The notes under the pieces: model-generated
What the model saw: only the letters and a program-made list of their open reading frames with translations
Told to the model about the DNA's origin: nothing
Database searches by the model: none
Translations under genes and position numbers: made by a program
Source: a virus
Strand: one strand, 5' to 3'
DNA: 31,872 bases
IMG/VR virus record: IMGVR_UViG_3300024985_000005
Span: 1-31,872 of that record
Shown here: positions 15,068 to 30,006 of the stretch, piece by piece
How positions within the stretch are numbered: the stretch's first letter is position 1
Layout: each line of letters opens with the position of its first letter

Positions 15068-15089
15068 TGCGATACCTCTATTGTGGTAA

Positions 15090-15119
15090 ATTATATGCTC
15101 ATATTGGTATTATTGTAAA
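15090..15119 (-). promoter_or_regulatory. Late promoter (pR'-like)
   Basis: On the minus strand, -35 TTTACA (15114-15119) and a perfect -10 TATAAT (15090-15095) are separated by 18 bp. Predicted transcription starts near 15083. It lies between the Q-like gene and the terminator, facing the late genes. It is the best sigma70 match I found in the window. Confidence 0.75.
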
Positions 15120-15146
15120 GCACTAAAAATAATCATATTCAATTTT

Positions 15147-15683: not shown

Positions 15684-15713
15684 CACACTCACCGCTTTAC
15701 TTAATTATTATAT

Positions 15714-18700
15714 TTAAGCCGCATCTGCCACTTTTTCACACACTGATTTATACAGATTCTGAATAGTTCTACGCCTAACTATCACATCAATCCGTTCATT
15801 TGTTTTCAGCGTATAAACCCTGTCACCTTTGCGCACGCCTTTACTTAATTTATGCCCAACAAGCGCATACCCGAAATGCTCAAGGAACTGATTAACAGCC
15901 CGCACTGGGTACTTTGATAGCTTGGCGTAATTACCTAACCCCAACGCCGCAATTTCAGCGTGGTTTTTTTGCAAATACTCACACACAACAACCGCGTGAT
16001 ACTGATCAACAGTCCGATCAGTCAGCATCATCATTAACACATCAATATGAAACCCTTTCGCCACCGACTTAAAGCCTTTCGACTTATCGTCTATCGCTTC
16101 CCGTTGCCATAATTCAGCTTCGGCAATCTCACGGTTATGAATAGTCTTTACCGCACGACCGCTATCAAAGAACACCACGTCATCTTCTGTCATGGTGTTT
16201 TTGCCCTCATTCGTGCTGGGCAAGCCAAACTCATACTGAACACTGTATTTTTCTAATTTATAGCTATCTTCCTGCGTTACGCTTTCAGCCTTTTCCAGTT
16301 TATAAGCATCCATTGCTGATATATCGGTGGCAGATAACACCCCCTCACAATGCACCGCACGCGCTGATTTACGAGCAATCGATAATGTTTCATTCGATTC
16401 ATCACCCTCAAAACGGCGCATTTCATACCCTTTCAAACGCATCAATAACAACGACTGCACCGCTATATCATTCAGCGAGTCGTTATGTCGGGAGATAATC
16501 TTCATGCGCAAACGGTCGATTGCTTCAATAATCGGCTCACCATCAACCACCCGCGCCCGTGCAATCACCTCACCATCGAGTAACGTTTTGGCAGAATTGC
16601 ATCGGTTTTTCGTGTGCTTATCATTAAACCCACAGACAATCTTTGCGCTATTACGGTTACGACCAATCATTTGCAATACTTCATTTTCAGCCAACACGCC
16701 ACGAAACAGCGCATAGTGAGCTTTGATATGGTCACAAGTAATAGACACGCCAGAGCCGATAACAGGGCTATGAATCACTACGTCATAATTAACGATCTCA
16801 TTATTCGGATTGCGCAAAAACTTCGCCTGATTTTCATCGGCTTTATTTTCAGAATTGACCAGCAGAACTTTAAGATGGGGTCTATTGACCGCTTGAAAGA
16901 TAGCCTTGCTTGCTTTGATGCTATCGGATTGAATCAGCGTAGGCACGCCAGATAATGCGCTTTTAACGGCGGCATTGAATGCAGGCACATAATGCCCATA
17001 CTCGATGACAGGCTCAGGATTAACCGCTGCACATGACAGCCCATAAAACGCTTTATCAGGGAAATTATGTTTAAGCCAATCGACCGTCAGTTGATTAAGG
17101 TCAGCATCACTGCCCAGCACATAGTCAGCAGTCTTTATCGCCAGAATCAGCGCGTCATAAACGGCTTTGCGCTCACTGGAAGAAATAGAACCAATGGCAA
17201 CGTGTTCAAGCGTTTGCCGAATTTCATCAATAAAAATAACGTTGGAAAATTGCGTGACGTGCGAAGAAAAACGCGGATTGATAATGGAATTGATACACAC
17301 CGCGACTGTATCTTCGCCTTCCATTTCTTTGCGATTGGCAATGTTTTTATAACTGACCGCGCGGATACGCTCACTGGAATTGGCAACCAATGACTGACGA
17401 TGACAAATATACGAGGCAAACAGACCGCGCTGAATAGCCAACGCCAACACAGCCCCCATGAGTTCAGTCTTACCTGTCCCCATTGGCCTGTCATCCAGCC
17501 AGATACCCTTGTTAGCCAAAATATCAACCGCAATCGAGGCATTATTACGACCCGTCGTATCAATAACGGCATTAAATCCTGCAAAACTGGCTTTGTTTTT
17601 TGCTTTGCAACGTTTCAGCGCATAAAACAACGCCTTTTTCATCACGCTATCAACCTGCGCCACATCGACATCAACACCACGTTGTGCCAATACATCACTC
17701 ACCTGTGCCGCCGCGTCATCCAAACCTAATAAAAACTGATTCGATACCGCTGTCGCACAGCAAAACCAGATGTGCTTTTTAATCACATTCAACTGACAAA
17801 GCTTAAGCAACTGTACTGCACCATCAAACGCATTGCGCTCTGGCACAATCTCAAACGGGTTTTTTCTAAAAACAAGCTGCTTTTTAAGCTCAGGTAAACC
17901 CTTTGCCAACATCACATCGTTAAAATCCGCTTTTACACCATCTAAATCAGCCACAAATATCCGCGCGGTATGCGCCTTTGCTGCTTTCAATGCCGCAAAC
18001 AGACCTGTATTGCCTTTGCCACCCGTATCATTATCAGCGGCAATGACAGGACGCTTAAAGCCCATCGCCTGCACCGCCTGTAAAACAGGTGCCAAGTTTT
18101 GCGCATCGCCAGCAACAAACACGGCTTTACCCGTAGCAAGATAGACACTTAAGCCAGTAGCAAAGCCTTCCGTGACAAACACATAATCATCAAGTTTGTT
18201 AGCCACACCCAGGCGAATAAATGAGCCTTTTTTAGCATCCGGTAAAAATCGATAATCTTTATTACGGCCGGTGTCATCAATCGCCACATCATAAATTTTT
18301 TGATACCCCGCCACTTTGCCGTTTTTATGCGACATACGAAGTATTAAAAAATCCCCTTTTTTATCATGCCCATGCTTAACGCCAGCAGCCGTGGCAACCA
18401 CCGCCGCATCACTTACTAAATCAGCAAACTTGGCTTTTAAATACAGTGATCCGGCCAGATAATCAGAACCATTGGCATAATCATCGCCCCACAATTCAAT
18501 TTGACTTTCACTCCACAGAGCCAATTTCAAATCGTCTGCCGCAGCTTTTTTAGGATTTATCTGAACAAATTTAGGCTTAACATAATCATCAATCGAGGTG
18601 TTTGATTTATATAAATCCCAAACAGCACTATATACTGAGAAACTCTCATAAAATCCCCCACCTTTATTAGTATAAAAACGGAAATAAGGAAATTTAACAA

Positions 18701-18992
18701 CAATACGGCTATCACCTTTACCGAATTCTTTTTCCTGAATATTAACAAAAGCGACTACTGATCCTTCGGGTGTGCCTTTTACAGTTTTAAAGCAAAATCG
18801 ATTGCCATTATTGCTGTATTTTCGAGAAAAATTAGGGTTAATATCATTAATTAACAAATTAATACCAACCACACTCGCCGCTGAACATATCGAGTCAAAA
18901 AAATAATTATAGGAATGCTCAGGATCATCGAATTTATTATCAACAAGCCATTGCGCAAACCCTACTTTAGTAGAACTAGACACGGCGTTCAT
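15714..18992 (-). CDS. Replication protein: Toprim primase-like plus helicase (origin-binding type)
   Basis: This 1092-residue protein has a Toprim domain near residues 270-330 (FVTEGFATGLSVY with the catalytic Glu, then VIAADNDTGG). It is followed by a superfamily 2-like helicase with Walker A PMGTGKTEL near 503-511 and a DEIR Walker B near 589-592 (VIFIDEIRQTLEHV), in the style of origin-binding helicases. A late motif LQMIGRNRNSAKIVCGF resembles the helicase QxxGR motif. It probably primes and unwinds phage DNA at the origin. The ATG at 18992 overlaps the dNMP kinase stop (ATGA); a GTG at 19004 is possible. It is the largest early gene. Confidence 0.78.
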   Translation of the reverse strand: MNAVSSSTKVGFAQWLVDNKFDDPEHSYNYFFDSICSAASVVGINLLINDINPNFSRKYSNNGNRFCFKTVKGTPEGSVVAFVNIQEKEFGKGDSRIVVKFPYFRFYTNKGGGFYESFSVYSAVWDLYKSNTSIDDYVKPKFVQINPKKAAADDLKLALWSESQIELWGDDYANGSDYLAGSLYLKAKFADLVSDAAVVATAAGVKHGHDKKGDFLILRMSHKNGKVAGYQKIYDVAIDDTGRNKDYRFLPDAKKGSFIRLGVANKLDDYVFVTEGFATGLSVYLATGKAVFVAGDAQNLAPVLQAVQAMGFKRPVIAADNDTGGKGNTGLFAALKAAKAHTARIFVADLDGVKADFNDVMLAKGLPELKKQLVFRKNPFEIVPERNAFDGAVQLLKLCQLNVIKKHIWFCCATAVSNQFLLGLDDAAAQVSDVLAQRGVDVDVAQVDSVMKKALFYALKRCKAKNKASFAGFNAVIDTTGRNNASIAVDILANKGIWLDDRPMGTGKTELMGAVLALAIQRGLFASYICHRQSLVANSSERIRAVSYKNIANRKEMEGEDTVAVCINSIINPRFSSHVTQFSNVIFIDEIRQTLEHVAIGSISSSERKAVYDALILAIKTADYVLGSDADLNQLTVDWLKHNFPDKAFYGLSCAAVNPEPVIEYGHYVPAFNAAVKSALSGVPTLIQSDSIKASKAIFQAVNRPHLKVLLVNSENKADENQAKFLRNPNNEIVNYDVVIHSPVIGSGVSITCDHIKAHYALFRGVLAENEVLQMIGRNRNSAKIVCGFNDKHTKNRCNSAKTLLDGEVIARARVVDGEPIIEAIDRLRMKIISRHNDSLNDIAVQSLLLMRLKGYEMRRFEGDESNETLSIARKSARAVHCEGVLSATDISAMDAYKLEKAESVTQEDSYKLEKYSVQYEFGLPSTNEGKNTMTEDDVVFFDSGRAVKTIHNREIAEAELWQREAIDDKSKGFKSVAKGFHIDVLMMMLTDRTVDQYHAVVVCEYLQKNHAEIAALGLGNYAKLSKYPVRAVNQFLEHFGYALVGHKLSKGVRKGDRVYTLKTNERIDVIVRRRTIQNLYKSVCEKVADAA

Positions 18993-19546
18993 ATCCCTAT
19001 CCACTGTGCAACAACCAGATTAACATCCATGATAAAGTCTTCCAGTGATCCGTCATTATCAATAAACTCATCACCATCCGCATTGTTAATGCCTACCTCG
19101 CTAGCATGAGCATCAACATCTTCACATAAACGGTCAACATGTACGATTAACCCGCCCATGTCGCGAATCATCGCCGCCTCATTCTCAAACCGCACATCAT
19201 CAAATACCAGATAACGATCCGCCATCATGCCAAGTCTGTTGCGCATGACAATCACCCATAAATCAGAATGAATCAGCTCACGGCCCCATTCAGTACCCAA
19301 CGTTTGCAAAATTTCCCGCAAGGATTTACCGATTTCAGCAATCACTAGCTCTTTATCGCCGGTCATGATTTCAAACACTTCCTGTTTGGTATAACCACAT
19401 TGCAGCAACAACAAAGAAGCCATATCTTTAATGCCATCCGCAAACGACACGCGCGTAAATCCTGATTTAACCAACTCAGCGGCCGCCGTACTTTTTCCTG
19501 ATTGCTTCTTACCTGCGAAGCCTATTATTATTTTATTGTTAGTCAT
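18989..19546 (-). CDS. Deoxynucleoside monophosphate kinase
   Basis: This 185-residue protein has an N-terminal P-loop GFAGKKQSGKST, then RVSFADGIKDMASLL and LREILQTLGTEWGRELIHSDLWV and VFDDVRFENEA. This pattern is typical of phage dNMP kinases (T4 gene 1-like), which phosphorylate dNMPs to feed phage DNA synthesis. I chose the ATG at 19546, which shares one base with the upstream stop (TGATG). It is coupled to the replication gene downstream by an ATGA overlap. Confidence 0.82.
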   Translation of the reverse strand: MTNNKIIIGFAGKKQSGKSTAAAELVKSGFTRVSFADGIKDMASLLLLQCGYTKQEVFEIMTGDKELVIAEIGKSLREILQTLGTEWGRELIHSDLWVIVMRNRLGMMADRYLVFDDVRFENEAAMIRDMGGLIVHVDRLCEDVDAHASEVGINNADGDEFIDNDGSLEDFIMDVNLVVAQWIGI

Positions 19547-19683
19547 CACACGCCCCAATCCGAAAAATTATCGTTGTCATCAACTACAGGGAAAAACCAT
19601 TTCCAGGTAGATTCAACTGCGATACACAACCCGAAAAAACCAATTGCACCCAACGCAATAATCCAAAATAAAACTGCTTTCAT
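19546..19683 (-). CDS. 45-residue single-span membrane protein
   Basis: This short protein begins MKAVLFWIIALGAIGFFGL and has one predicted membrane span, then an aromatic/acidic tail (WKWFFPVVDDNDNFSDW). I chose the ATG at 19683 because AGAGGT lies just upstream and the ATG shares a base with the stop of the preceding tiny gene (TGATG). Starting upstream would extend it into that gene. Function unknown. Its chain of overlaps places it firmly in the early operon between regulator and dNMP kinase. Confidence 0.6.
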   Translation of the reverse strand: MKAVLFWIIALGAIGFFGLCIAVESTWKWFFPVVDDNDNFSDWGV

Positions 19684-19796
19684 CACACACCTCTGAATAC
19701 TTTGTTTAAATAAGCCAACAGCCAATCCACGACGACATACAGCCCCCATGTAATGGTTAGCCCGATGGCGGTTAGCACTTCTTTAATGAACTTCAT
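19683..19796 (-). CDS. 37-residue single-span membrane protein
   Basis: This small protein reads MKFIKEVLTAIGLTITWGLY and continues with VVVDWLLAYLNKVFRGV: two basic residues, one membrane span and a basic end. Its ATG lies inside the last codons of the HTH gene (14-bp overlap), and its stop overlaps the next ATG (TGATG). It is below the usual length cutoff, but the overlaps and hydrophobic design support it. Function unknown. Together with the next gene it forms a pair of tiny membrane proteins. Confidence 0.55.
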   Translation of the reverse strand: MKFIKEVLTAIGLTITWGLYVVVDWLLAYLNKVFRGV

Positions 19797-20064
19797 AACT
19801 GGCCGCCTTGACAGAGACTGTCATCACGCCATAAGCAATCGCCCTAACCAATGCCGCCGCACGCAAATTAATAGAGGCATTGTGCAGCTGTAATTTGCGG
19901 TAAATACGTTCGTTATAAGCACAAATTGCACTTGGACTGATACCCAATTCACGGGCCATCATTTTGTCGGTTTTGCCTTCTGCATCCGCCAATAAAACCT
20001 GACATTCGCGCGGTGTTAACAGCTGTTTACCTTGTTCGGTAATGGTTAATTCAATATCGTTCAT
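19783..20064 (-). CDS. LuxR-type HTH regulator
   Basis: This 93-residue protein is essentially a LuxR/GerE helix-turn-helix: LLTPRECQVLLADAEGKTDK, MMARELGISPSAICAYNERIY and RKLQLHNASINLRAAALVRA. It lacks a receiver or sensor domain. A GAGG Shine-Dalgarno lies about 7 nt before the ATG. It is the second gene of the leftward early operon, after the Cro-like gene, in the position where lambda has cII. It may be an additional lysis/lysogeny or timing regulator. The target is unknown. Confidence 0.75.
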   Translation of the reverse strand: MNDIELTITEQGKQLLTPRECQVLLADAEGKTDKMMARELGISPSAICAYNERIYRKLQLHNASINLRAAALVRAIAYGVMTVSVKAASYEVH

Positions 20065-20166
20065 TGTGATACCTCATTAAGTAGCTGACAGCATTCACAG
20101 CTAAGCAGTGAATGACTGTGGTGAGTGGTAAAAATACCTATACTGAAAAAAATACCAACATCCGTG

Positions 20167-20403
20167 TTAGTCAGTGGCTTCAGAGGTAGGCTGAATTGGT
20201 TTAAAACTGTCAGAACGCAGCTGCTCTATTGATAGACCTGTTAGCTCAATTAATGCTGGTAAAACTTTGATTGATGGTTTTCTAGTTCCATTCCGCCAGT
20301 GTTTTACACATGAATTAGATACACCTACTGATTTGGCAATATCTGCCATCACAGAGGTTCGCTCTTTTTGTGGAAATGAATTTATATAGCTGTTGAAAGT
20401 CAT
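20167..20403 (-). CDS. Cro-like HTH repressor
   Basis: This 78-residue HTH protein (VMADIAKSVGVSNSCVKHWRNGTRKPS) resembles Cro/YdaS-type regulators. It is divergent from the CI-like repressor and first in the leftward early operon, as Cro is. An AGGAG Shine-Dalgarno lies 6 nt before the ATG. It probably binds the GATAC-N5-GTATC operators and shuts off repressor synthesis at induction. The C-terminal tail is Pro/Thr-rich. Confidence 0.8.
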   Translation of the reverse strand: MTFNSYINSFPQKERTSVMADIAKSVGVSNSCVKHWRNGTRKPSIKVLPALIELTGLSIEQLRSDSFKPIQPTSEATD

Positions 20404-20423
20404 TTATTACTCCTTTTTGCATG

Positions 20424-20452
20424 ATGATACATATCGTATCTATAAAAAGCAA
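20424..20452 (-). promoter_or_regulatory. Leftward early promoter (pR-equivalent) with operator
   Basis: On the minus strand, -35 TTGCTT (20447-20452) and -10 TATCAT (20424-20429) are separated by 17 bp. A palindromic operator GATAC-ATATC-GTATC (20426-20440) overlaps the spacer and -10. Repressor binding there would block the Cro-like operon. Confidence 0.65.
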
Positions 20453-20474
20453 GCAATAGCTACAAAATGTGTCA

Positions 20475-20502
20475 TTGTTTATTTATATACAATCGGTATC
20501 AT
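20475..20502 (+). promoter_or_regulatory. Repressor promoter (pRM-equivalent) with operator
   Basis: TTGTTT (20475-20480), 16 bp, TATCAT (20497-20502). An operator variant TATAC-AATCG-GTATC (20486-20500) matches the consensus GATAC-N5-GTATC at nine of ten arm positions. The predicted start falls at or next to the repressor ATG at 20509, so the mRNA could be leaderless, as lambda cI is from pRM. Confidence 0.5.
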
Positions 20503-20508
20503 CTAATT

Positions 20509-21219
20509 ATGAAATGGTTTGATAGAGCAAAAAAAATAATGAAAGATAAGGGCATCACTCAGGATGACCTTATCGTATATTTAGGCGTGAAAACACGCGG
20601 CGCAGTAGGGCATTATTTAACAGGAAGACGTGAACCAAATGCTGAACAATTAGCTGTACTTGCTAAAAAATTAGACTGTTCTTTAGACTGGTTAGTCACT
20701 GGGAATAGTGAGCAAAAAGAAACTAATCATATAAAAGAACGACATAAAACTTATGATATTAATAGTTTTGATGTATGGGATAGCACAACGCCATTGCGTG
20801 ATGACGAGGTAGAGTTACCGTTTTTTAGAGAAGTAGAGCTTTCAGCAGGCACAGGACGGCATGAAGTGATAGAAAATCATGGTTGCAAGCTGCGTTTTTC
20901 AAAATCAACACTGAAAAGGAAAGGCATTGACGCAAAACATGCCGCCTGTGTCACCGTATCGGGTAACAGCATGGAACCTGTGCTACCTGATAAATGTGTT
21001 GTTGGTATTGATACAAACGCAACCGCTATAAAAAACGGCGATATGTACGCGATAGACCACCAAGGCGAACTCAGAGTAAAGATGCTTTACCGCTTGGTAG
21101 GTGACGGTATCAGACTAAGAAGCTATAACGAAGATTATCCCGATGAAATGTACACCCATGACGCGGCAAAAAATATCAAGGTGCTAGGACGTGTGTTTTG
21201 GTGTTCATGGCTTGTGTAA
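20509..21219 (+). CDS. CI-like prophage repressor (HTH plus S24 peptidase)
   Basis: This 236-residue protein has an N-terminal HTH (ITQDDLIVYLGVKTRGAVGHYL) and a C-terminal LexA/CI-type S24 domain. The catalytic Ser154 is in GNSMEPVL and Lys191 in LRVKML, and an Ala-Gly pair (ELSAGTG, residues 113-114) is suited to self-cleavage. It should maintain lysogeny by binding the shared operators and be inactivated by RecA-stimulated autocleavage during SOS. I chose the ATG at 20509; an upstream in-frame start at 20467 would cross the promoter and operator. It is divergent from the Cro-like gene. Confidence 0.88.
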   Translation: MKWFDRAKKIMKDKGITQDDLIVYLGVKTRGAVGHYLTGRREPNAEQLAVLAKKLDCSLDWLVTGNSEQKETNHIKERHKTYDINSFDVWDSTTPLRDDEVELPFFREVELSAGTGRHEVIENHGCKLRFSKSTLKRKGIDAKHAACVTVSGNSMEPVLPDKCVVGIDTNATAIKNGDMYAIDHQGELRVKMLYRLVGDGIRLRSYNEDYPDEMYTHDAAKNIKVLGRVFWCSWLV

Positions 21220-21233
21220 AAAACAAGAATATT

Positions 21234-21260
21234 CAGTTGTTAAGGATTACTTAACAACTG
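21234..21260. repeat. Perfect 11-bp inverted repeat after repressor gene
   Basis: CAGTTGTTAAG-GATTA-CTTAACAACTG lies 14 bp after the repressor stop and 19 bp before the nuclease start. No T-run follows, so it is not a standard intrinsic terminator. It could be an operator for the nuclease gene, an RNA stem limiting readthrough, or a processing site. Confidence 0.7.
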
Positions 21261-21279
21261 CACATACGAAGAAATTATC

Positions 21280-21897
21280 ATGAAAAAAATCATTATTCTA
21301 ACGCTAATATTATTAACAAAATTAACACTGGCATCAGACATAGCAGGCGATATAAATAATGATGGTATCCTCTCTGGCGAAGAACAATTCCTGCTTAATA
21401 ATCCACCGATAGAAAACAGTACACCAATAGAAAATGAAGATGAATTATTAACCGAAGACCCAATACCATCACCATACAAACATAATTCAGCAGGAATTGA
21501 GCGGGATGCAGACGGACGGATAAAAAGGAGTTCCGCCGCGAAAAATGATTTTAAACAATCAAACCCATGTCCAAATGGGGTAAGGCGTTCAGGATCATGC
21601 CCTGGATATGTTATAGACCATATTAATCCATTAGCGTGTGGTGGTGCCGATGCTCCCTATAACATGCAATGGCAAACCGTCCAAGCGGCTAAAGCCAAAG
21701 ACAAAACAGAACGCGACAACTGCCAACCACACAAAAATAAAACGCGCTATAAACCAGGCACTGTTTTATATGACAGTGAGCGTGATACAAATAGAGAAAC
21801 CTACTCTAATAGCAGAGAAATTCACATAGGTCCGCGTAATGGTCATTACACCATATCACCAAGCAGTGGTAAAAAGGTATATATAAAACGCCGTTAA
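21280..21897 (+). CDS. Secreted HNH nuclease with Ca-binding EF-hand-like segment
   Basis: This is a 205-residue protein. Residues 1-18 form a signal peptide (MKKIIILTLILLTKLTLA). Residues 24-35 are an EF-hand/dockerin-like loop (DINNDGILSGEE). A low-complexity acidic part follows. Residues about 75-133 are an HNH nuclease, with a DADGRIKRS lead-in, a Cys pair (97, 107), core Asp113-His114 in GYVIDHINPLACGG, and Asn128 in NMQWQT. The C-terminus (GPRNGHYTISPSSGKKVYI) is a basic module seen at the ends of other nucleases. It lies next to the repressor, away from lytic operons, so it may be expressed in the lysogen. Possible roles are superinfection exclusion or attack on neighbours; neither is proven. 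Confidence 0.75.
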   Translation: MKKIIILTLILLTKLTLASDIAGDINNDGILSGEEQFLLNNPPIENSTPIENEDELLTEDPIPSPYKHNSAGIERDADGRIKRSSAAKNDFKQSNPCPNGVRRSGSCPGYVIDHINPLACGGADAPYNMQWQTVQAAKAKDKTERDNCQPHKNKTRYKPGTVLYDSERDTNRETYSNSREIHIGPRNGHYTISPSSGKKVYIKRR

Positions 21898-22000
21898 ATC
21901 AAGCCTACTAAAAACTCAGCATGGGAAACCCTAATAAGTATTTTGTGTTCAGGGTTTATATAAATAATTTGCTTGCTTACTATAAAAATAAGAGACAATA

Positions 22001-22072
22001 ATGACAACCGTTAAAGCACATGTTCCGCCTAAACGAATTCCTGTACCAAAACCACCCAATCCGCCCAAATAG
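22001..22072 (+). CDS. 23-residue proline-rich micropeptide
   Basis: ATG to TAG gives 23 residues, MTTVKAHVPPKRIPVPKP then PNPPK, with seven prolines and basic residues. An AGAGA lies 6 nt upstream of the ATG. Its stop TAG overlaps the Shine-Dalgarno AGGAGG of the next gene (start at 22081), so it may act as a leader that controls that gene by translational coupling, or make a small peptide. Too short for homology. Confidence 0.4.
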   Translation: MTTVKAHVPPKRIPVPKPPNPPK

Positions 22073-22080
22073 GAGGCGTT

Positions 22081-22548
22081 ATGGACAAAACTAAAGATCA
22101 ACTCAAAGGTGAAATTCGCTATGTGATTCGCCTTTGTCAACGCCAATCCCGTTTTTATCGCCGCATTCAGTCTATAGGATTATTCCTGTCCATTATTGGC
22201 GGCAGTGCTACCTTTTCTATTTTATCAACTGCATTACCACAATGGCTATCATTTGCAGGAGCGGCTTTATTAGCCTGCTCAGGTGCCGCGCTACTCACTA
22301 TAAAACCCGCTGAAAAAGCATTATTAAATGACGCAGATGTAAAACGTTATCAAGCAATACTACCCAAGTTTAATCTACTTAATGAGGAAGAACTAGAAGC
22401 CGCTATTAAAGAAGCCAGGATAAATGATACCTATGAAATAGAGCCATTAAGAAACATCGCTTTCAATGACGTGATGCACGAAATAAACCGTGAAGATGAG
22501 CTGATAAAACTAAATACAACTGAAACTATAATGGGTATATTGGCTTAA
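22081..22548 (+). CDS. Two-TM membrane protein (SLATT-like character)
   Basis: This 155-residue protein begins with a basic helix (RYVIRLCQRQSRFYRRIQSI), then two close membrane spans (IGLFLSIIGGSATFSILSTAL and FAGAALLACSGAALL), then an acidic helical cytoplasmic part (LLNEEELEAAIKEARIND). The basic helix plus two spans resembles SLATT-type 2TM effector domains found in defence systems and some phages, but I cannot confirm membership. A strong GGAGG Shine-Dalgarno lies 5-6 nt before the ATG. An intrinsic terminator follows. Candidate superinfection exclusion or abortive infection protein. Confidence 0.6.
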   Translation: MDKTKDQLKGEIRYVIRLCQRQSRFYRRIQSIGLFLSIIGGSATFSILSTALPQWLSFAGAALLACSGAALLTIKPAEKALLNDADVKRYQAILPKFNLLNEEELEAAIKEARINDTYEIEPLRNIAFNDVMHEINREDELIKLNTTETIMGILA

Positions 22549-22572
22549 TAACCTATAAAACTATCAGTAAAC

Positions 22573-22604
22573 AAAACCCGCACTGGCAGCAGTCGCGGGT
22601 TTTT
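22573..22604 (+). terminator. Intrinsic terminator after two-TM gene
   Basis: The stem AAACCCGC / GCGGGTTT is continued by an inner ACTG / CAGT pair, and the tail is TTTTT. It lies 25 bp after the stop of the two-TM gene. The outer stem is the same as that of the terminator at 23192-23224. Confidence 0.85.
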
Positions 22605-22646
22605 GTGTTTATGGCTTGTATAAAAATAACAACTGCCAACGACTTT

Positions 22647-22671
22647 GCACTGTGCAAATTTTGCACAGTGC
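22647..22671. promoter_or_regulatory. 25-bp perfect palindrome, candidate operator
   Basis: GCACTGTGCAAA-T-TTTGCACAGTGC, two perfect 12-bp arms about a single base, 18 bp before the start of the anchored coiled-coil gene. There is no T-run. It differs from the immunity operators, so it may bind another dimeric regulator (phage or host), or fold in the mRNA leader near the ribosome binding site. Confidence 0.65.
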
Positions 22672-22689
22672 TTTACATAAGGAACCGTC

Positions 22690-23175
22690 ATGAAAAAATT
22701 TATTCTGTTTATAGCATTGTTCCTTGCCTGGATTACATCGGCAATTACCGATAAATACAACGATGGAAAACGAACAAATAGAATAAAAAGCGTGCAACGC
22801 ATTGAACAACAAAAAAAAGACGAACAACAACAAAATAATTATGAACAAGAATTGAGAGACAAAATAGAAAGACAAAATCAATTATTAGCTGAAAAAAACC
22901 AACAATTATTAAAACTTTATCAAAATATCAAACCACCGCTTAATAAACGTGATTACTTGTTCGCTATAGAAAGTTATTTGCAACCAAAAGGAAATACAAT
23001 AAATAACATCGGTGAACCACAGCGTAAAGTGGTCATAAAAAACGACTTTGGTTTTGAGAAAGGCGATGAAATTGAGACCGTTGAAGTAATATATACAACA
23101 CCACAAAATCAAAAACGTCTTTGTTTTTTTATTTTTAGAGATAAAATTTTTATAAAAGCAATAGAATTCAATTAA
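22690..23175 (+). CDS. Membrane-anchored coiled-coil protein of unknown function
   Basis: This 161-residue protein has an N-terminal signal peptide or anchor (MKKFILFIALFLAWITSAI), a Gln/Lys/Glu-rich coiled coil at about residues 35-75 (EQQKKDEQQQNNYEQEL, IERQNQLLAEKNQQLL), and a mixed C-terminal domain (KRDYLFAIESYLQPKG, FIFRDKIFIKAIEFN). Family not recognised. An AAGGAA Shine-Dalgarno lies before the ATG. Terminators on both sides and a palindrome upstream make it an independent transcription unit, typical of a lysogen-expressed moron gene. The base composition is more AT-rich than in the structural genes. Confidence 0.65.
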   Translation: MKKFILFIALFLAWITSAITDKYNDGKRTNRIKSVQRIEQQKKDEQQQNNYEQELRDKIERQNQLLAEKNQQLLKLYQNIKPPLNKRDYLFAIESYLQPKGNTINNIGEPQRKVVIKNDFGFEKGDEIETVEVIYTTPQNQKRLCFFIFRDKIFIKAIEFN

Positions 23176-23191
23176 TAAAACCTAATACATT

Positions 23192-23224
23192 AAACCCGCA
23201 CGGGCAACCGTAGCGGGTTTTTTA
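23192..23224 (+). terminator. Intrinsic terminator after coiled-coil gene
   Basis: AAACCCGC-ACGG-GCAA-CCGT-A-GCGGGTTT followed by TTT. It lies 16 bp after the stop of the coiled-coil gene and isolates that gene from the early promoter at 23278. Confidence 0.85.
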
Positions 23225-23277
23225 TTGTCTAAAATTTATTTTATCTATTTTTTTTGCTAAAAATATACATTTTGTGC

Positions 23278-23306
23278 TTTACAAAGATACAAAACGTATC
23301 TAATAT
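23278..23306 (+). promoter_or_regulatory. Rightward early promoter (pL-equivalent) with repressor operator
   Basis: -35 TTTACA (23278-23283) and -10 TAATAT (23301-23306) with a 17-bp spacer. The spacer contains a perfect operator GATAC-AAAAC-GTATC (23286-23300), the same motif as at 20426-20440. The CI-like or Cro-like protein should therefore repress this second early operon as well. Confidence 0.78.
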
Positions 23307-23366
23307 AAGCACAAAGGAAAAGTAAAGCGTATCGCCACAAAACAAACCACCACCGAGGCTAAGACC

Positions 23367-24078
23367 ATGATCACATCAACCGCACCAGTTAACCAAAACG
23401 ACTCAATTTATCCAGAAGAACCAGCCACCGAGCTGTGTTTTATCACCCCACTGAATTATCACCCCACTGAATGGCGTTAATACCGTAGTCACCACCAACT
23501 TCATTATCAGCCGCATGTTCGGTATCTATATTGAGCGGGTAAATGCACTGATAGGTCTTGCCAAAGAACTGCCCGCAAAAAATATAACTAATTTGGATTT
23601 TGAATATATAGATGATGGTGCCGGCTGCATCATCATGACCCGTGAATTTTTCCTGACTATTCCATTTTTGCGCAGCATCTATATAAAAGAATTATTCCTG
23701 AACGCATTTGATGAAGTTGAAAGCGCATTGTTATTTATGAACGAGTTAAACGAAAACGAAGCATCGGCACAACAAGAATTAGACAACCTACTGACTAAAT
23801 ACCTGAGCGGTATGCAACTGGAAGAAATGATTTGTTTGCATGATGACGGCTTAATATCTGCTACCTCCTTATTAAGCGAACTTTACATGGCAGTCAACGA
23901 CGGCTGTCTTTTTATCGCTGACCGTTGCCCATTGGTCAACTACCCAGTTATTAAACAATTCAAAGACGCGGTGAATGATATACCTTATTTTTTCACCGAA
24001 ACGCGTCTGTCTACCATGATTCGCCTTTACCCGTCGAAGCTGTATGACGATGAACTAATTACCGATACCGATTTTTAG
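23367..24078 (+). pseudogene. First gene of rightward early operon, frameshifted by 16-bp duplication
   Basis: The ATG at 23367 (GAGG Shine-Dalgarno 8 nt upstream) reads MITSTAPVNQNDSIYPEEPA, then TELCFITPLNYHPTEWR and stops at 23480. The remaining frame, open from before 23457 to 24078, reads PLNGVNTVVTTNFIISRMFG and on to ITDTDF. Deleting one copy of the 16-bp duplication joins them into one protein of about 231 residues. The in-frame ATG at 23515 could give 187 residues but has no Shine-Dalgarno. The product is acidic, mostly helical and unrecognised. Its place right after the repressed early promoter is where lambda has N and where anti-defence genes often lie. Confidence 0.75.
23441..23472. 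repeat. Exact 16-bp tandem duplication
   Basis: The 16-mer TATCACCCCACTGAAT occurs twice in direct contact (23441-23456 and 23457-23472) with no mismatch. It shifts the frame of the gene starting at 23367. The perfect identity suggests a recent event or a reversible slippage site. Confidence 0.95.
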
Positions 24079-24091
24079 CAGGTGACGTGTC

Positions 24092-24367
24092 ATGACAGAA
24101 AGCCACCGTTATTACCTAAGTTATCTAAAGTCAAAAGTATGGAAATCAAAACGCTTAGCCAGGCTGACAAAAGACCGTTGGCAATGTAATGACTACCAAT
24201 CAATAGAAAGCCTGTAAGTACACCACTTATCCTACGAACGTTTCGGCAATGAAGACATAGACGACTTAATCAATCTATGCCACCCCTGCCACGTTATAGC
24301 CCACAAAATTAAGGACATAAGCCATGAAACAAACCCTACGCCAACACAACGCCTTGATCATGATTGA
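24092..24367 (+). pseudogene. HNH endonuclease broken by an in-frame stop
   Basis: The frame from ATG 24092 reads MTESHRYYLSYLKSKVWKSK and RLARLTKDRWQCNDYQSIESL, then TAA (24215-24217). It continues in the same frame as VHHLSYERFGNEDIDDLINL and CHPCHVIAHKIK. This is a clear HNH domain (VHHLxYERFGNE and CxxC near the end), found free-standing in many phages. The first zinc pair is also damaged: CNDY where CxxC is expected. A CAA-to-TAA change would explain the stop. Probably inactive. The next gene starts inside its 3' end. Confidence 0.8.
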
Positions 24368-24530
24368 TCAAAAAAACGCCCACCCATCACCTAACTGTGT
24401 GCTGCCAGTGGATGAAAAAGCCGATCAATATGAAATTACCCTGTCCTTTGAAAAGTTGCCTGTGCTGTGCGCAATACTGACAGGTCTTTGTATCGGTGCG
24501 GTTACCACCGCACTGTATTTAACCGCGTAA
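24324..24530 (+). CDS. Small membrane protein
   Basis: This 68-residue protein has a hydrophilic N-terminal half (MKQTLRQHNALIMIDQKNAH) and one C-terminal membrane span (LCAILTGLCIGAVTTALYL). An AAGGA motif lies about 10 nt before the ATG. It starts inside the 3' end of the broken HNH frame. Function unknown; an early phage membrane protein. Confidence 0.5.
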   Translation: MKQTLRQHNALIMIDQKNAHPSPNCVLPVDEKADQYEITLSFEKLPVLCAILTGLCIGAVTTALYLTA

Positions 24531-24547
24531 TTAACCAGGCTACCACA

Positions 24548-24841
24548 ATGCCAGACAACATCATAAAAGCCCTTATCAAAGGCGCATTGGTTGAAATAGA
24601 CCTTGATAACGCGGTTATTCATTGCGTGACCAATTTAATTACCACGTCCGTAGAGCTGTGCATCGAAGTACCTCCCGATGGTGAGTTACTCCCGTTCGCA
24701 AAGATAAAACTGTATGACGATTACCGCTATTTATCAGCATTCAAAACGCTCGATGACGCGGCTAAATTAGGCAATAGGCTGATTAATTCATTATTGGCAG
24801 TTAAACAAACCCAACCCATTGCAGGTACCCATCATGAGTAA
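24548..24841 (+). CDS. Hypothetical early protein upstream of ssb
   Basis: This 97-residue protein begins MPDNIIKALIKGALVEIDL and contains FAKIKLYDDYRYLSAFKTLDD. It is mixed alpha/beta with no recognised family. I chose the ATG at 24548; the longer frame from 24467 would overlap the membrane protein gene by 64 bp. Its end overlaps the ssb start by eight bases, so it is likely co-translated with SSB. Confidence 0.55.
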   Translation: MPDNIIKALIKGALVEIDLDNAVIHCVTNLITTSVELCIEVPPDGELLPFAKIKLYDDYRYLSAFKTLDDAAKLGNRLINSLLAVKQTQPIAGTHHE

Positions 24842-25268
24842 CTCACTAAGTTTTGCAGGCAACCTTGGTGGGGATGCCGAAGTTCGCTACACGCTTTCTG
24901 GAACAGCAGTGCTGTTATTCAGTGTCGCCATGTCCAGTGGCTATGGTGACAATAAAAAAACCGACTGGGTCCGTGTATCCATGTTCGGCAAAGTCGCCGA
25001 ATCGACGCTAAAAAACTTCCTGCGTAAAGGCACGTCGGTCTTTGTCAGCGGCGAATGCTCAATCAACACCTACCTTTCCCACGACGGCACCACTAAAGCA
25101 TCCATCAACCTGATTGCTCATAGCGTTGATCTGGTTGGCAAGAAACAAGAAACAGAAACCAACACAGAAACACCAGCAAAACCCAAAAAATCTGCAAAAC
25201 GAAAAACAGCAGAAACACCAGCGACTGTTGGCAATGATGTGCCTTTTGATAATGATATTCCGTTTTAG
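24834..25268 (+). CDS. ssb: Single-stranded DNA-binding protein
   Basis: This 144-residue protein has an OB-fold: LSFAGNLGGDAEVRYTLSGT, VLLFSVAMSSGYGDNKKTDW, RVSMFGKVAE and GTSVFVSGECSIN. A Lys/Thr/Pro-rich linker follows, and the acidic C-terminal tip NDVPFDNDIPF is the SSB tail that recruits replication and repair partners. It should coat phage ssDNA during replication. I chose the ATG at 24834, which overlaps the upstream gene by eight bases. It resembles bacterial SSB but with a shorter tail. Confidence 0.9.
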   Translation: MSNSLSFAGNLGGDAEVRYTLSGTAVLLFSVAMSSGYGDNKKTDWVRVSMFGKVAESTLKNFLRKGTSVFVSGECSINTYLSHDGTTKASINLIAHSVDLVGKKQETETNTETPAKPKKSAKRKTAETPATVGNDVPFDNDIPF

Positions 25269-25276
25269 GAGTCACC

Positions 25277-25450
25277 ATGAAAACTGCCGCCCAAATTTCC
25301 GCCGATAAACGCAGCAGGTCCTTAACACTGGCCTGCATAAAAAGAACCACACCTAAAGCACATCAACAGTTTGTTATTACACCAAGAAATCTAGCCATAC
25401 TGCCCTTAATAAACTGGAAGATACTGGACCAAACGAGAATAAGACAATGA
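25277..25450 (+). CDS. Small basic early protein (57 residues)
   Basis: The ATG at 25277 has a strong AGGAG Shine-Dalgarno 7 nt upstream. The 57-residue product begins MKTAAQISADKRSRSLTLAC and is basic (many Lys, Arg, Gln). Its stop overlaps the next ATG (ATGA at 25447-25450). Spacing and ribosome binding site support a real gene. No family is recognised. The charge suggests nucleic acid or protein binding. Confidence 0.6.
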   Translation: MKTAAQISADKRSRSLTLACIKRTTPKAHQQFVITPRNLAILPLINWKILDQTRIRQ

Positions 25451-25665
25451 CCTTAACTGATAAAACTCTGACCGCACTCTGTGTGCAAATGTACAACAAA
25501 CCCGCACGCCACCGCCGTGAAGTGGCATTTGATCCACATTGTTTTGATGACATCGGCAATACCAACACCGAAGCGAAATTATTAGCTAATGATACGCTGG
25601 TTATACTTGGCTTTGCCGCGCTAACCTGTGTGCTAGTTGTCGCTGTTAATGCTGTATTTTCATAA
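25447..25665 (+). CDS. Small protein with C-terminal membrane span
   Basis: This 72-residue protein has a hydrophilic first part (MYNKPARHRREVAFDPHCFDD) and a C-terminal span (TLVILGFAALTCVLVVAVNAV). It is coupled to the preceding gene by an ATGA overlap. Tail-anchored topology likely. Unknown function. Confidence 0.5.
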   Translation: MTLTDKTLTALCVQMYNKPARHRREVAFDPHCFDDIGNTNTEAKLLANDTLVILGFAALTCVLVVAVNAVFS

Positions 25666-25675
25666 GGATAAAACT

Positions 25676-25999
25676 ATGCCAGTAATTAAAAAAAGAAATG
25701 CCTATGTAGAAGTCAAGTGCTTAAGAGGACTACAAAAAAGCGCACTAGGCTTTTGGTTAATAGATACTGTTGATGGAAAACAGTCATCAATAGTATTTAT
25801 GGCATCAAAAAATGGAGATATTCCCAATATTGAATCTATTGCTGATCATTGTACTAGCTTTGCTTTTGAAGATGATGAACAAATAGTATTAACTGCCAAA
25901 GCAGAAAATGTAACCATCATGCACAACGACGGCGATCTAGTAGTATTTAAAATAAAAGCAACAATATCACGCCTAGTACCACAGGAAATAAGAGCCTAA
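25676..25999 (+). CDS. Hypothetical early protein
   Basis: This 107-residue protein (MPVIKKRNAYVEVKCLRGLQ, then KNGDIPNIESIADHCTSFAF) appears to be a beta-rich single domain. I chose the ATG at 25676 because AAGGA lies 7 nt upstream; an in-frame start at 25637 would overlap the previous gene. No family recognised. Confidence 0.55.
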   Translation: MPVIKKRNAYVEVKCLRGLQKSALGFWLIDTVDGKQSSIVFMASKNGDIPNIESIADHCTSFAFEDDEQIVLTAKAENVTIMHNDGDLVVFKIKATISRLVPQEIRA

Positions 26000-26002
26000 A
26001 CC

Positions 26003-26233
26003 ATGCCACTACACATCATCAAAAACTATTCTGGCAAGCCGTTACAACGTGACGGCATCGTGATAGACAGCACAATAAAAGCAACCAGAATCTGTAAAAA
26101 CACCATTACCTATAACCTGCGTTTAGGCGATCCAGCGATCATCACTGTTATCGTGATCAGCCCGCATATTTTTCGCCACTTCGGCGCATTTTTAGAGCAT
26201 CCAGACGTATCAATGGAAGGAGTACAGCCATGA
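26003..26233 (+). CDS. Hypothetical early protein
   Basis: This 76-residue protein (MPLHIIKNYSGKPLQRDGIV, then YNLRLGDPAIITVIVISPHI) starts 3 bp after the previous stop and ends with an ATGA overlap into a very small gene. It is probably beta-rich. No family recognised. Translation is likely coupled, since no clear Shine-Dalgarno is present. Confidence 0.5.
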   Translation: MPLHIIKNYSGKPLQRDGIVIDSTIKATRICKNTITYNLRLGDPAIITVIVISPHIFRHFGAFLEHPDVSMEGVQP

Positions 26234-26319
26234 GCAAACGTTACAACAACTACGAACGCGCACAAAAAATGATCTGCCGCGCCTACCGTTGCATCCTCTC
26301 TTTTAGATGCAGAGGCTAA
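26230..26319 (+). CDS. 29-residue basic peptide
   Basis: ATG at 26230 overlaps the previous stop (ATGA) and has an AAGGAG Shine-Dalgarno 7 nt upstream. The peptide begins MSKRYNNYERAQKMICRAYR and ends CILSFRCRG, strongly basic with three Cys. It is followed after 4 bp by the zinc-ribbon gene. Such tiny genes occur in phage early operons, but function cannot be given. Confidence 0.4.
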   Translation: MSKRYNNYERAQKMICRAYRCILSFRCRG

Positions 26320-26323
26320 TGCC

Positions 26324-26752
26324 ATGAACTTGATAACCCATTACTGCACCGTACTTGATAGAGTGAAAATAATAACACCATCAGGTATTAAATTAATCAA
26401 CCATACGACTGAAGACGATATTCTTGATCCTGAAGACGATATTCTTGATCCGCGTGATGTGACATACGCATACAAACTATCATCGAGATTTTGCGCGTGT
26501 GGTAAACAGTTAATGAATTATCAGGAACATCACTGTTCAGTGAAATGTCTGCACATTTATAAAAAGAAAACGCCATCAAAAAATGTACAGTACAGAGAAT
26601 GCCCAGTTTGCAATGAAATAAAACTGTTCAAGCTTGCCAAGCAGATTGTATGCAGCAAAGCCTGTGCAGCAATACGAGGCAACGAACAAAGAGCAAAGAT
26701 ACCACCACAGCCTATCGTGTATAAACCTTGCCCTGTATGCAATAAAACATAA
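26324..26752 (+). CDS. Tandem zinc-ribbon protein, third ribbon cut by a stop
   Basis: This 142-residue protein has an N-terminal part with a duplicated EDDILDP (a 21-bp in-frame repeat), then zinc ribbons: CACGKQLMNYQEHHCSVKC and CPVCNEIKLFKLAKQIVCSKAC. A third begins CPVCNKT and meets TAA at 26750-26752. Beyond the stop the same frame reads PLKYAKQIFFSTLCAAM, a decayed copy of KLFKLAKQIVCSKACAA, and ends at 26833. The gene was probably longer, or grows by ribbon duplication. Zinc ribbons of this kind usually bind nucleic acid. Confidence 0.6.
   Translation: MNLITHYCTVLDRVKIITPSGIKLINHTTEDDILDPEDDILDPRDVTYAYKLSSRFCACGKQLMNYQEHHCSVKCLHIYKKKTPSKNVQYRECPVCNEIKLFKLAKQIVCSKACAAIRGNEQRAKIPPQPIVYKPCPVCNKT
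26411..26452. repeat. 21-bp in-frame tandem duplication
   Basis: Two adjacent 21-bp copies (26411-26431 and 26432-26452) differ only in the last base. Each encodes EDDILDP/R and the frame is kept. It is the third short tandem duplication in the window. Confidence 0.92.
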
Positions 26753-26834
26753 CCTTTAAAATATGCGAAGCAAATATTTTTCAGCACATTATGTGCGGCT
26801 ATGTCATTAAATATGAAAATGAGGAAAATTTAAA

Positions 26835-27200
26835 ATGATAAAAATAAAGCCAGAACCAACAGAATATTTTATTAGAGGCTATGAATATAACTATTGGATT
26901 ACACAAATGGAACAAGAAAAGCCAATAAATCATATCGAATCAGAATATGAGCAAAAACGCAATGCAGCTCTTATAAAGAAAGGTATTAAAACAATTAATA
27001 AAAATTGGTATATATGCTGTATGCGTGATGATTTAAGAACTATATCTAAATTTGATTTTCAAAATTCTTTTTTTGGCTTTGTAAATGGCTTTGAATCATT
27101 AAACGAAGCACTATATATTCTTGAGTTTTATATAAACAAAGAATTCGATGTTTTAATATGGCTTGGTGGAATGAATAGATGGTCAACTTATAAAAAATGA
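26835..27200 (+). CDS. Hypothetical early protein
   Basis: This 121-residue protein has a charged first half (YEYNYWITQMEQEKPINHIE) and a mixed second half (FDFQNSFFGFVNGFESLNEA, IWLGGMNRW). It is very AT-rich compared with its neighbours. A GAGG motif lies about 11 nt before the ATG. Its end overlaps the next gene by four bases. No family recognised. Confidence 0.55.
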   Translation: MIKIKPEPTEYFIRGYEYNYWITQMEQEKPINHIESEYEQKRNAALIKKGIKTINKNWYICCMRDDLRTISKFDFQNSFFGFVNGFESLNEALYILEFYINKEFDVLIWLGGMNRWSTYKK

Positions 27201-27460
27201 AAGAATTTAAACAGACAACCATGCCAATATCAACAGTATTAGCATATATCCCACCAAAAATAAAAAAATACAGGCCACTGCTTGATCCAAAAACCTTAAC
27301 AACAGGGCAACGCAAAGCACTATGGGCTGGTATAAAAAGAGATAGCCCAGCACTAGCTGAAATGCTAACCAATGATCCAATAATAGACGCACTAAAAACA
27401 ACATTCAATGCCAGTGTCATGTTTTACGCAGACGAAGCCATTGACTACATGAAAGATTAA
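27197..27460 (+). CDS. Hypothetical early protein of phage type
   Basis: This 87-residue protein contains IPPKIKKYRPLLDPKTLTTG and QRKALWAGIKRDSPALAEML, a pattern I associate with small phage early proteins but cannot name. It is helical and charged. Coupled to the preceding gene by ATGA overlap (27197-27200) and followed 20 bp later by the PrtN-like gene. Confidence 0.55.
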   Translation: MKEFKQTTMPISTVLAYIPPKIKKYRPLLDPKTLTTGQRKALWAGIKRDSPALAEMLTNDPIIDALKTTFNASVMFYADEAIDYMKD

Positions 27461-27480
27461 AAATAAAAATAGGGATTGCT

Positions 27481-27750
27481 ATGAGCCTACAAACCTCAAC
27501 ATTTTACGCACTGCTTGCTGAATTCAATGCCATCACCATTGAATTGAATGCAGTGTGCAAAAAATACTTTGGCTTAAACCCTCCAGAAGCGGCAAAGCGG
27601 GCAAGCCTAAACCAACTGCCAGTCCCTGTATTCCGCTGTGGAAGCCAAAAAGCAGGATGGATGATCCATGCCGCTGACCTAGCGAAACACATCGACTCAC
27701 AACGCCAAGCTGCACTCCAAGAATGGAAAAAAATGAATGGTGATTTATGA
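27481..27750 (+). CDS. Pyocin activator PrtN-like protein
   Basis: This 89-residue protein matches the PyocinActivator (PrtN) family: LNAVCKKYFGLNPPEAAKRA, LPVPVFRCGSQKAGWMIHAA, DLAKHIDSQRQAAL. PrtN in Pseudomonas activates pyocin genes during SOS. Small PrtN-like proteins are also common in phage early operons, where they probably bind DNA with a MerR/winged-helix-like fold. AGGGA lies before the ATG. The end overlaps the next gene by four bases. Its target here is unknown; a role in early-to-late switching or excision is possible. Confidence 0.75.
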   Translation: MSLQTSTFYALLAEFNAITIELNAVCKKYFGLNPPEAAKRASLNQLPVPVFRCGSQKAGWMIHAADLAKHIDSQRQAALQEWKKMNGDL

Positions 27751-28283
27751 ACTACATAGAAAAGCAAGTAAGGCTGGCAATTGAAGAATTTGGCGATAAA
27801 GCGCATGAAATATTCTGGTATAACTTTGGCGAAGGCAGTTATACACCGACATCTAATGACATGCTGTTAAAAAATATTGACATAACAAATCTTGAATTAA
27901 TTCCATTGAGCTACTTATTTGAATACGATGTTAATGAGTATGGCGATAACGCGCATTTGATGTGGGAGTGGCAATATAAAGACCGTTCTCATTTAAACGA
28001 CTGGTTTCAATGCGATAGACCATTAACTTTTAAACCATTGTTAAATTACAGACGAAAAATATCAGCCGCTCTACCATTTGACCTTGATCGTGCGAAAGCT
28101 GGTGATGTGGTTGAGTGTTATTTTGAGCAATTAGGATGGATTAATTGTGAGTATATCCCATCGCCATCAGTAACATTATTTCCAGTTACATTTGCTAGTT
28201 TTGATACACATGATAGTGAATTTTTAACTGCAAATAGATTACGAATGAAATATCCAAAGGCGGTAAAAAATGAGCATGGCTAA
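27747..28283 (+). CDS. Hypothetical early protein
   Basis: This 178-residue protein has an acidic first part (MNYIEKQVRLAIEEFGDKAH), a Trp-rich middle (HLMWEWQYKDRSHLNDWFQC) and a C-terminal segment FDLDRAKAGDVVECYFEQ that looks like a small SH3-like or beta domain seen in other phage early proteins. No family named. Coupled to the PrtN-like gene by ATGA, and its end overlaps the next small gene by 14 bases. Confidence 0.55.
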   Translation: MNYIEKQVRLAIEEFGDKAHEIFWYNFGEGSYTPTSNDMLLKNIDITNLELIPLSYLFEYDVNEYGDNAHLMWEWQYKDRSHLNDWFQCDRPLTFKPLLNYRRKISAALPFDLDRAKAGDVVECYFEQLGWINCEYIPSPSVTLFPVTFASFDTHDSEFLTANRLRMKYPKAVKNEHG

Positions 28284-28434
28284 CGGATTCCCTTTTGAGC
28301 AATACACAAAAACAACTTATACTTTTAGAGTGGCTTATTGTTGTGATGAAAAACCAATTGAGCTTAAACAAAAGCCAAAGAAGCACTGGGAGCATTTGAA
28401 TAAGCAGGCTTATAAAGGCGGTAAAAATGACTGA
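28270..28434 (+). CDS. Small early protein (54 residues)
   Basis: ATG at 28270, inside the end of the previous gene, gives 54 residues beginning MSMANGFPFEQYTKTTYTFR; the C-terminal half is Lys-rich (ELKQKPKKHWEHLNKQ). The stop overlaps the next start by eight bases. The start sits in AAAGGCGGTAAAAAATG, nearly the same leader as the next gene has at 28414-28429. An alternative start is 28276. Unknown function. Confidence 0.5.
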   Translation: MSMANGFPFEQYTKTTYTFRVAYCCDEKPIELKQKPKKHWEHLNKQAYKGGKND

Positions 28435-28699
28435 ACAAGAAATAATGAATTTAAGCCGACATGAGCTTGATAATGCAGTTTTGGAAATAGAAAAAAGGAA
28501 AGAAGACAAATATTATTATAGACCGACAACAAACGGAAATCAGTGCATGGAAATAATGGAACGTGAAAGAATCGATTGCGTTGTTGTTTTTTGTAATGAT
28601 GGTATCAAATGGAAAGCAACAAATAATAAATGCACTGTAACGGGAAAAACCCCTCAAGAAGCAATCATGCGCTGTTTTTTATTGAGCAAACAGCAGTAA
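28427..28699 (+). CDS. NinX/DUF2591-like early protein
   Basis: This 90-residue protein begins MTEQEIMNLSRHELDNAV, then has YYRPTTNGNQCMEIMERERI, a WKATNN stretch and TPQEAIMRCFLLSK. The order YxPxTNxxQ, IxERExI and PxxAxMRCFxxSK is that of NinX/DUF2591 phage proteins. Role of the family is not established. It is the last gene of the rightward early operon, before a terminator. Confidence 0.6.
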   Translation: MTEQEIMNLSRHELDNAVLEIEKRKEDKYYYRPTTNGNQCMEIMERERIDCVVVFCNDGIKWKATNNKCTVTGKTPQEAIMRCFLLSKQQ

Positions 28700-28769
28700 A
28701 ACCTTATAAAGAAACATTATTATCTCTAAAAATCCTACACAACAAATAATAAAAATGTAACAAACTGTT

Positions 28770-28934
28770 TTACAAGTTATTTTTATTATTATCTATCCAA
28801 TCCAACATCGGGGCTATGCTAAAAACATTAGCCCTTTGTTTTAGTGCTTTCTCTTTGCTATTCATGGCACCTATTGCATTCAATTCTGTTTTATTGTCGC
28901 TCATTTCCTGCTTATTATTAGCTTTTTTATCCAT
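28770..28934 (-). CDS. Possible 54-residue protein opposite the early operon end
   Basis: A minus-strand frame from ATG 28934 to TAA 28770 gives 54 residues beginning MDKKANNKQEMSDNKTELNA and containing KALKQRANVFSIAPMLDWID. It looks protein-like and would be divergent from int. No good Shine-Dalgarno was found, and the terminator hairpin at 28810-28842 lies inside it, so this is uncertain. An excision or directionality factor is imaginable but unsupported. Confidence 0.3.
   Translation of the reverse strand: MDKKANNKQEMSDNKTELNAIGAMNSKEKALKQRANVFSIAPMLDWIDNNKNNL
28810..28842 (+). terminator. Terminator of rightward early operon
   Basis: GGGCTA / TAGCCC stem with an additional TG/CA pair across a bulge, loop CTAAAAA, followed by TTTGTTTT. 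It lies 110 bp after the NinX-like gene and before int. The remaining gene-free sequence between 28700 and 28980 is AT-rich; attP could lie here, but I see no distinct core. Confidence 0.7.
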
Positions 28935-28980
28935 GTGAGTGCTACTATAATCCTACTTGAAAATTGGTGTAGGACTAAAT

Positions 28981-30006
28981 GTGGCGAGTATTATTAAACG
29001 CAAACGCAAAGACGGCACGATGGCCTATCGCGCTGAGATTCGCTTGAAGCGTAATGGGGCTATTATACACAGTGAGAATAAAACATTTGATCGGCAGGCT
29101 CTGGCCAAGGCGTGGGCAAGTAAACGTGAACTGGAGTTACAGGAAACCGAAGCCTACGGAAAACCTAAAGGCATACTGATAAAAACGCTGATTGACAACT
29201 ACATCACACAGTTTTCTTGGCAATATGGCAGGTCGAAAAATTATGATATTCGGCGTTTGCTGAATTATCCGCTGGCTGACTTGGATGCTTACGCGCTGGA
29301 AGCCAAGCACATTATTCAGCATTGCATCGAGCGCAATAAACAAGCCAAGCCACAGACGGTACACAATGACGTAATCTGGTTGAGGACGATCATGAGGACT
29401 ATGCGTGATGTGGAAGGGCATAGTTATAGTATGGAAGTATTTGACACAGCCACGCAAATGTTAAAGCGGGAAAAGTTGATAGGGAAATCTAAGGTGCGTG
29501 ATCGTCGCCCTACTCCATTGGAGTTATGGCGGCTATCACGTTTTTTTGGCAGGAATAAACGGCGCACAGTACCGATGTTACACTTAATGTGGTTTGCCAT
29601 CTATTCGGCACGGCGGGATAGCGAGATTTGTCGGTTGCGTTGGCAGGATAATAACGAGGACAGGCAAACAGGTATGGTGCGTGATTTGAAACACCCGACG
29701 CACAAAACAGGCAATCACAAGCGGTTCAAGTACCCTAATTCAGCATGGACAATCGTCCAAAAACAACCGCGTGTTGCTGAACATATTTTTCCCTACAATT
29801 CCCGTACCATCAGTGCCTACTTTGCCAATGCCTGTAAGCTGTTGGGTATCGAGGATTTGCACTGGCATGATTTACGCCATGAGGCGATCAGCCGCTTGTT
29901 TGAAAAAGGCTTACGCATTGAGCAGGTGCAGTTAATAAGCCTGCATGAAAACTGGCAAACCTTGAAACGCTATACTAATTTGAAGCCAGAAGACTTGGAG
30001 GTATGA
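28981..30006 (+). CDS. int: Tyrosine integrase
   Basis: This 341-residue protein has an N-terminal arm-binding-like part (VASIIKRKRKDGTMAYRAEI), a core-binding domain, and a tyrosine recombinase catalytic domain: Arg212 in YSARRDSEICRLRW, a Lys region LKHPTHKTGNHK, His296-x-x-Arg299 in HDLRHEA, His322 in SLHENW and Tyr331 in LKRYTNL. It should catalyse site-specific integration and excision at attP. I chose the GTG at 28981 because AGGA lies 6 nt upstream and the protein then begins like other integrases. A TTG at 28957 is also in frame. It lies after the early operon terminator and converges with the late-strand gene at its 3' side. Confidence 0.9.
   Translation: MASIIKRKRKDGTMAYRAEIRLKRNGAIIHSENKTFDRQALAKAWASKRELELQETEAYGKPKGILIKTLIDNYITQFSWQYGRSKNYDIRRLLNYPLADLDAYALEAKHIIQHCIERNKQAKPQTVHNDVIWLRTIMRTMRDVEGHSYSMEVFDTATQMLKREKLIGKSKVRDRRPTPLELWRLSRFFGRNKRRTVPMLHLMWFAIYSARRDSEICRLRWQDNNEDRQTGMVRDLKHPTHKTGNHKRFKYPNSAWTIVQKQPRVAEHIFPYNSRTISAYFANACKLLGIEDLHWHDLRHEAISRLFEKGLRIEQVQLISLHENWQTLKRYTNLKPEDLEV

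Follow-up and report, generated by a model that had tools for sequence, protein, structure and literature searches.

The locus examined here raises the question of why the first gene behind the early promoter of a putative lambda-like temperate phage is divided over two reading frames at a short tandem repeat, and whether this state reflects a recent loss of function, a reversible switch, two separate genes or an error of contig assembly. The window, meaning the whole stretch of DNA analyzed, is a virus record of 31,872 bases; all coordinates refer to it.

The 16-bp Tandem Duplication and the Interrupted Early Gene

The unit TATCACCCCACTGAAT occurs twice on the plus strand, head to tail and with 0 mismatches, with copy 1 at positions 23441-23456 and copy 2 at positions 23457-23472; since period-16 identity holds over 17 bases, the array given by the repeat scan spans 23440-23472. 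The exact repeat is far beyond chance, as 20 simulated sequences matched to the window in length and dinucleotide composition contained no perfect tandem run of period 12-60. Gain or loss of one 16-bp unit changes the reading frame. As it stands, the frame starting at ATG 23367 (23367-23480, plus strand) encodes 37 amino acids and ends at the stop codon TAA at 23478-23480, while the downstream frame of 187 codons (23515-24078, plus strand), which belongs to no known family, is open in the upstream direction only as far as a TGA within copy 1. Removal of one copy joins the two frames across the remaining unit without a stop, giving 30 + 14 + 187 = 231 residues.

Coding potential was scored with the codon usage of the phage itself, taking its shifted frames as the contrast. 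The 30 codons 5' of the repeat reach +11.2 bits in the frame of ATG 23367 and -16.9 and -7.1 bits in the other frames, the reference being the starts of nine other genes in the same phage, which score +4.2 to +12.2. Past the repeat, the downstream frame scores +3.9 over the 14 codons that lead up to ATG 23515, where both other frames are negative, and +73.7 over the 187-codon body. Coding signal of the kind looked for in a pseudogene persists on either side of the lesion, in two frames shifted against each other. The only good ribosome binding site of the two parts, a GAGG motif at the proper distance, precedes ATG 23367, and no similar site was found before ATG 23515. Because the codon statistics agree on both sides and the ribosome site is present at 23367 only, the locus reads best as one 231-codon gene cut by the duplication, and a single original gene, broken by the 16-bp repeat, is supported by these sequence features. 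The body of the gene contains no further lesion.

The initial annotation had described an exact back-to-back duplication that interrupts a single gene, with a stop-free product of about 231 residues once one copy is removed; the repeat and the joined frame hold, and the single gene is supported. Its further suggestion of a very recent loss finds support, as regards recency, in the identity of the two copies and the otherwise clean frame.

Repressor Control and Layout of the Early Operon

The early operon has a sigma-70-type promoter, TTTACA-17-TAATAT (23278-23306, plus strand), which ends 60 bases 5' of ATG 23367 and whose spacer holds the operator GATACAAAACGTATC (23286-23300). A palindrome search detected the matching operator GATACATATCGTATC at 20426-20440, between a gene for a Cro-like helix-turn-helix protein (20167-20403, minus strand), judged from its sequence, and a gene encoding a CI-like repressor (20467-21219, plus strand) with matches to the HTH_3 and Peptidase_S24 domains. 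Within the window, the palindrome GATAC-N5-GTATC is present at these two positions and nowhere else, against 0.04 occurrences expected. The repressor/Cro region and the early promoter therefore share one operator, as in a CI-controlled operon, and control of the early promoter by this operator is well supported by the sequence. The earlier placement of the interrupted gene as the first behind an operator-controlled early promoter is thus upheld.

Replication and structural genes lie leftwards, and a second operon ending in genes for a single-stranded DNA-binding protein (SSB) and an integrase lies rightwards; this layout is lambda-like. The accessory stretch between the repressor gene and the early promoter includes a gene at 22081-22548 with a weak match, below curated cut-offs, to SLATT / 2TM effector proteins, which is a possible superinfection-exclusion or defence gene.

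Directly downstream of the interrupted gene is an HNH-type pseudogene (24092-24320, plus strand) that is interrupted in frame by TAA at 24215-24217 and carries tyrosine in place of a zinc-ligand cysteine that is retained in an intact relative (L010:716-982), which has 88 amino acids, is 52% identical and contains no stop. Since both defects of this neighbour are point lesions, the end of the operon appears to be decaying; such lesions are untypical of assembly errors, so the decay is probably real, and it also agrees with the first gene having lost its function.

The Predicted Protein and Searches for Relatives

The 231-residue product is acidic, with a pI of 4.15. N-type antiterminators are small and basic. 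The product shows none of the small, strongly basic, arginine-rich make-up of that class at its 231 residues and pI of 4.15, and no PHROG or Pfam match; the anti-termination or anti-defence role proposed in the initial annotation is suggested by position alone. No relative of the 187-residue protein was detected by tblastn of phages and plasmids at E values up to 1, and the protein had no match in Pfam, PHROGs, NCBIfam, PADLOC or the PDB. DNA searches for near and distant copies of the locus in phage, plasmid, viral and genome collections gave no other copy, a DNA pattern spanning the junction had no match, and peptide-pattern scans of viral and genome contigs were likewise negative for the 187-residue frame, for the longer one and for the N-terminal piece. 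The gene was not found in related loci or their full records. Used as scan anchors, the repressor and a RepA-like protein returned no relatives, and the terminase, SSB and HNH proteins returned relatives, none of which carries the broken early gene; no host genome emerged when the genome collection was scanned with an alignment of terminases. Structure prediction for the 187-residue fragment, run without an alignment, gave a mean pLDDT of 32 and is unusable.

Further Tandem Duplications and the Sister Contig

Two further short tandem duplications were detected in the window. An exact, in-frame 21-bp duplication (26409-26451, plus strand) repeats seven residues of the gene at 26324-26752, the product of which resembles a Cys-rich zinc-ribbon protein. 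The other, a 38-bp duplication (3567-3642, minus strand) with copies differing by 2 bases, shifts the frame of the tail-fibre-like gene at 3361-5351, which stops at 588 codons and leaves its last part as a separate 67-codon open reading frame. With three such duplications (16, 21, and 38 bp), the window exceeds the density of the comparison set roughly 20-fold: this set, 671 kb from other viral contigs and not a random sample, contained about three comparable cases (unit of 15 or longer, at most one mismatch, one collagen-like repeat left out), so that 0.14 would be expected in the window (P about 0.0004).

The sister contig IMGVR_UViG_3300024895_000017 differs from window positions 1-14951 by a single SNP outside the 38-bp repeat. 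It has one 38-bp unit and an intact tail-fibre-like gene (window 3361-5351 compared with L007). The left of the two copies in the window is identical to the sister, and all differences from it (3622, 3627, and 4988) lie right of the junction, a pattern that fits the joining of two strain haplotypes, whether the assembler made the join or co-infecting phages recombined unequally. The 38-bp case is accordingly either a copy-number polymorphism of the tail-fibre-like gene or an assembly error. The sister leaves 14952-29713 uncovered, which includes the 16-bp site, and breaks off on either side of the early region.

Regarding strain mixing, comparison of 31171-31389 with the sister (L008) revealed 19 differences clustered in about 220 bp, mostly synonymous; recombination between strains seems to be real, and this cluster may be the sign of an exchange with a diverged strain. 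The gene concerned is a tail-region gene of 1027 amino acids in the sister and is cut by the end of the window. The sister also runs past the left end of the window across 8.6 kb that carries tail and lysis-like genes (L008 2215-10803) and re-enters at the right end, which implies a genome of about 40.5 kb that is circular or circularly permuted.

Origin of the 16-bp Duplication

A recent, real duplication that broke a dispensable early gene is our first choice, ahead of an assembly artefact, and we hold it with about even confidence. Under this explanation, the first gene of the repressor-controlled early operon of a lambda-like temperate phage would once have specified a single acidic product about 231 residues long, and an accidental and recent 16-bp duplication after codon 30 would have shifted its frame. 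Translation from the only good start would then end at codon 37, with the 187-codon remainder left without a proper start, and the change would be an ordinary loss-of-function indel in the dispensable, decaying end of an operon. A recent event fits the absence of further lesions in the body of the gene. Reversion by loss of one copy would be possible, as for any tandem duplication, and nothing indicates upkeep as a switch. The sequence shows the exact repeat, the two frames, coding signal on either side of it, the operator with its promoter and the decayed neighbour; that the duplication is genuine and no product of assembly, that it happened recently and that the phage has lost the protein is what we infer.

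Assembly error, which the initial annotation left out of account, is a serious rival, and we consider it possible though less probable: the phage would have one copy and an intact gene, and contig pieces with a short overlap would have been joined unmerged, leaving the second copy. Suspicion is raised because the three duplications exceed the density in the comparison contigs about 20-fold, with three in one contig against the 0.14 expected from the 671 kb, and because the only one that can be checked, that of 38 bp, is single in a near-identical genome, with all differences to the right of the junction as in a haplotype join; the ends of the sister contig on each side of the early region point the same way. 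However, the unit lengths are unequal, no N bases are present at the duplication joins, and unequal recombination of co-infecting strains could also give the 38-bp pattern, strain recombination being seen elsewhere, at 31171-31389. An assembly error of constant overlap (fixed k) was rejected, as the three unit lengths differ.

The reversible phase-off state proposed in the initial annotation, in which slippage between one and two copies would turn the first early gene on and off as an evolved phase-variation switch, is not supported and appears unlikely. One unit gained or lost does alter the frame, a second frame-breaking duplication (38 bp) differs in copy number between near-identical genomes, and pneumococcal capsule genes use short tandem duplications reversibly (Waite et al., 2001, 2003, cited by PMC4022640), but the repeat has two copies only and forms no simple-sequence tract, no other state of the site and no second copy of the locus were found in the phage, plasmid, viral and genome collections, point lesions, which are irreversible, disrupt the adjacent HNH gene, and tandem duplications in Xenorhabdus lrp are plain mutants (PMC6786866). 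It is quite improbable that the phage population turns two or more of its genes, one in the early operon and the tail-fibre-like one, on and off by short, non-simple tandem duplications; if it did, early functions and host recognition would vary within one clone. The least probable explanation, to which we give hardly any weight, is a native layout in which a 37-codon leader frame precedes an independent 187-codon gene that reinitiation might serve to translate. In its favor, each frame is open in the present sequence, and ATG 23515 is 34 bases past the stop of the first. Against it, the coding signal of the downstream frame extends upstream to the repeat, the frame changes precisely where the exact repeat lies, and ATG 23515 lacks a ribosome site; a two-gene layout was rejected on the codon statistics and the missing site.

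If the 16-bp duplication is real, it adds another case in which an accessory early gene of a phage was recently lost through tandem duplication. The 38-bp case is the more useful one, as a frame-breaking duplication that one of two near-identical phage genomes has and the other lacks. It may be a true polymorphism in a tail-fibre-like gene; otherwise it is a warning about contig joins in viral metagenomes. If it is a join error, false frameshifts may mimic pseudogenes or switches in such data.

Comparison With Known Systems

The early region resembles the lambda-type early left operon, in which N lies downstream of cI, in having a CI-like repressor gene followed by accessory genes, then an operator-controlled promoter and early genes that lead to SSB and integrase genes on the same strand. 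It differs in its first gene, which is acidic, of 231 codons, not N-like, and has no relative in the collections searched.

Regarding the lesion itself, the pneumococcal capsule genes cap3A, cap8E, and tts undergo phase variation through spontaneous short tandem duplications, according to the work of Waite et al. (2001, 2003) as it is quoted in PMC4022640. In those genes, as here, a short head-to-tail duplication within an open reading frame disrupts the gene it lies in and might, in principle, revert by loss of a copy; phase variation is reported there, whereas a single state of the site is known here. In lrp of Xenorhabdus nematophila, tandem duplications of 26-116 bp were found, for which reversion was examined and which do not represent phase variation (PMC6786866). 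The likeness to the phage gene is that a short tandem duplication stands among several kinds of loss-of-function lesion, and the difference is that reversion was examined in lrp, whereas the early phage gene is known from its sequence.
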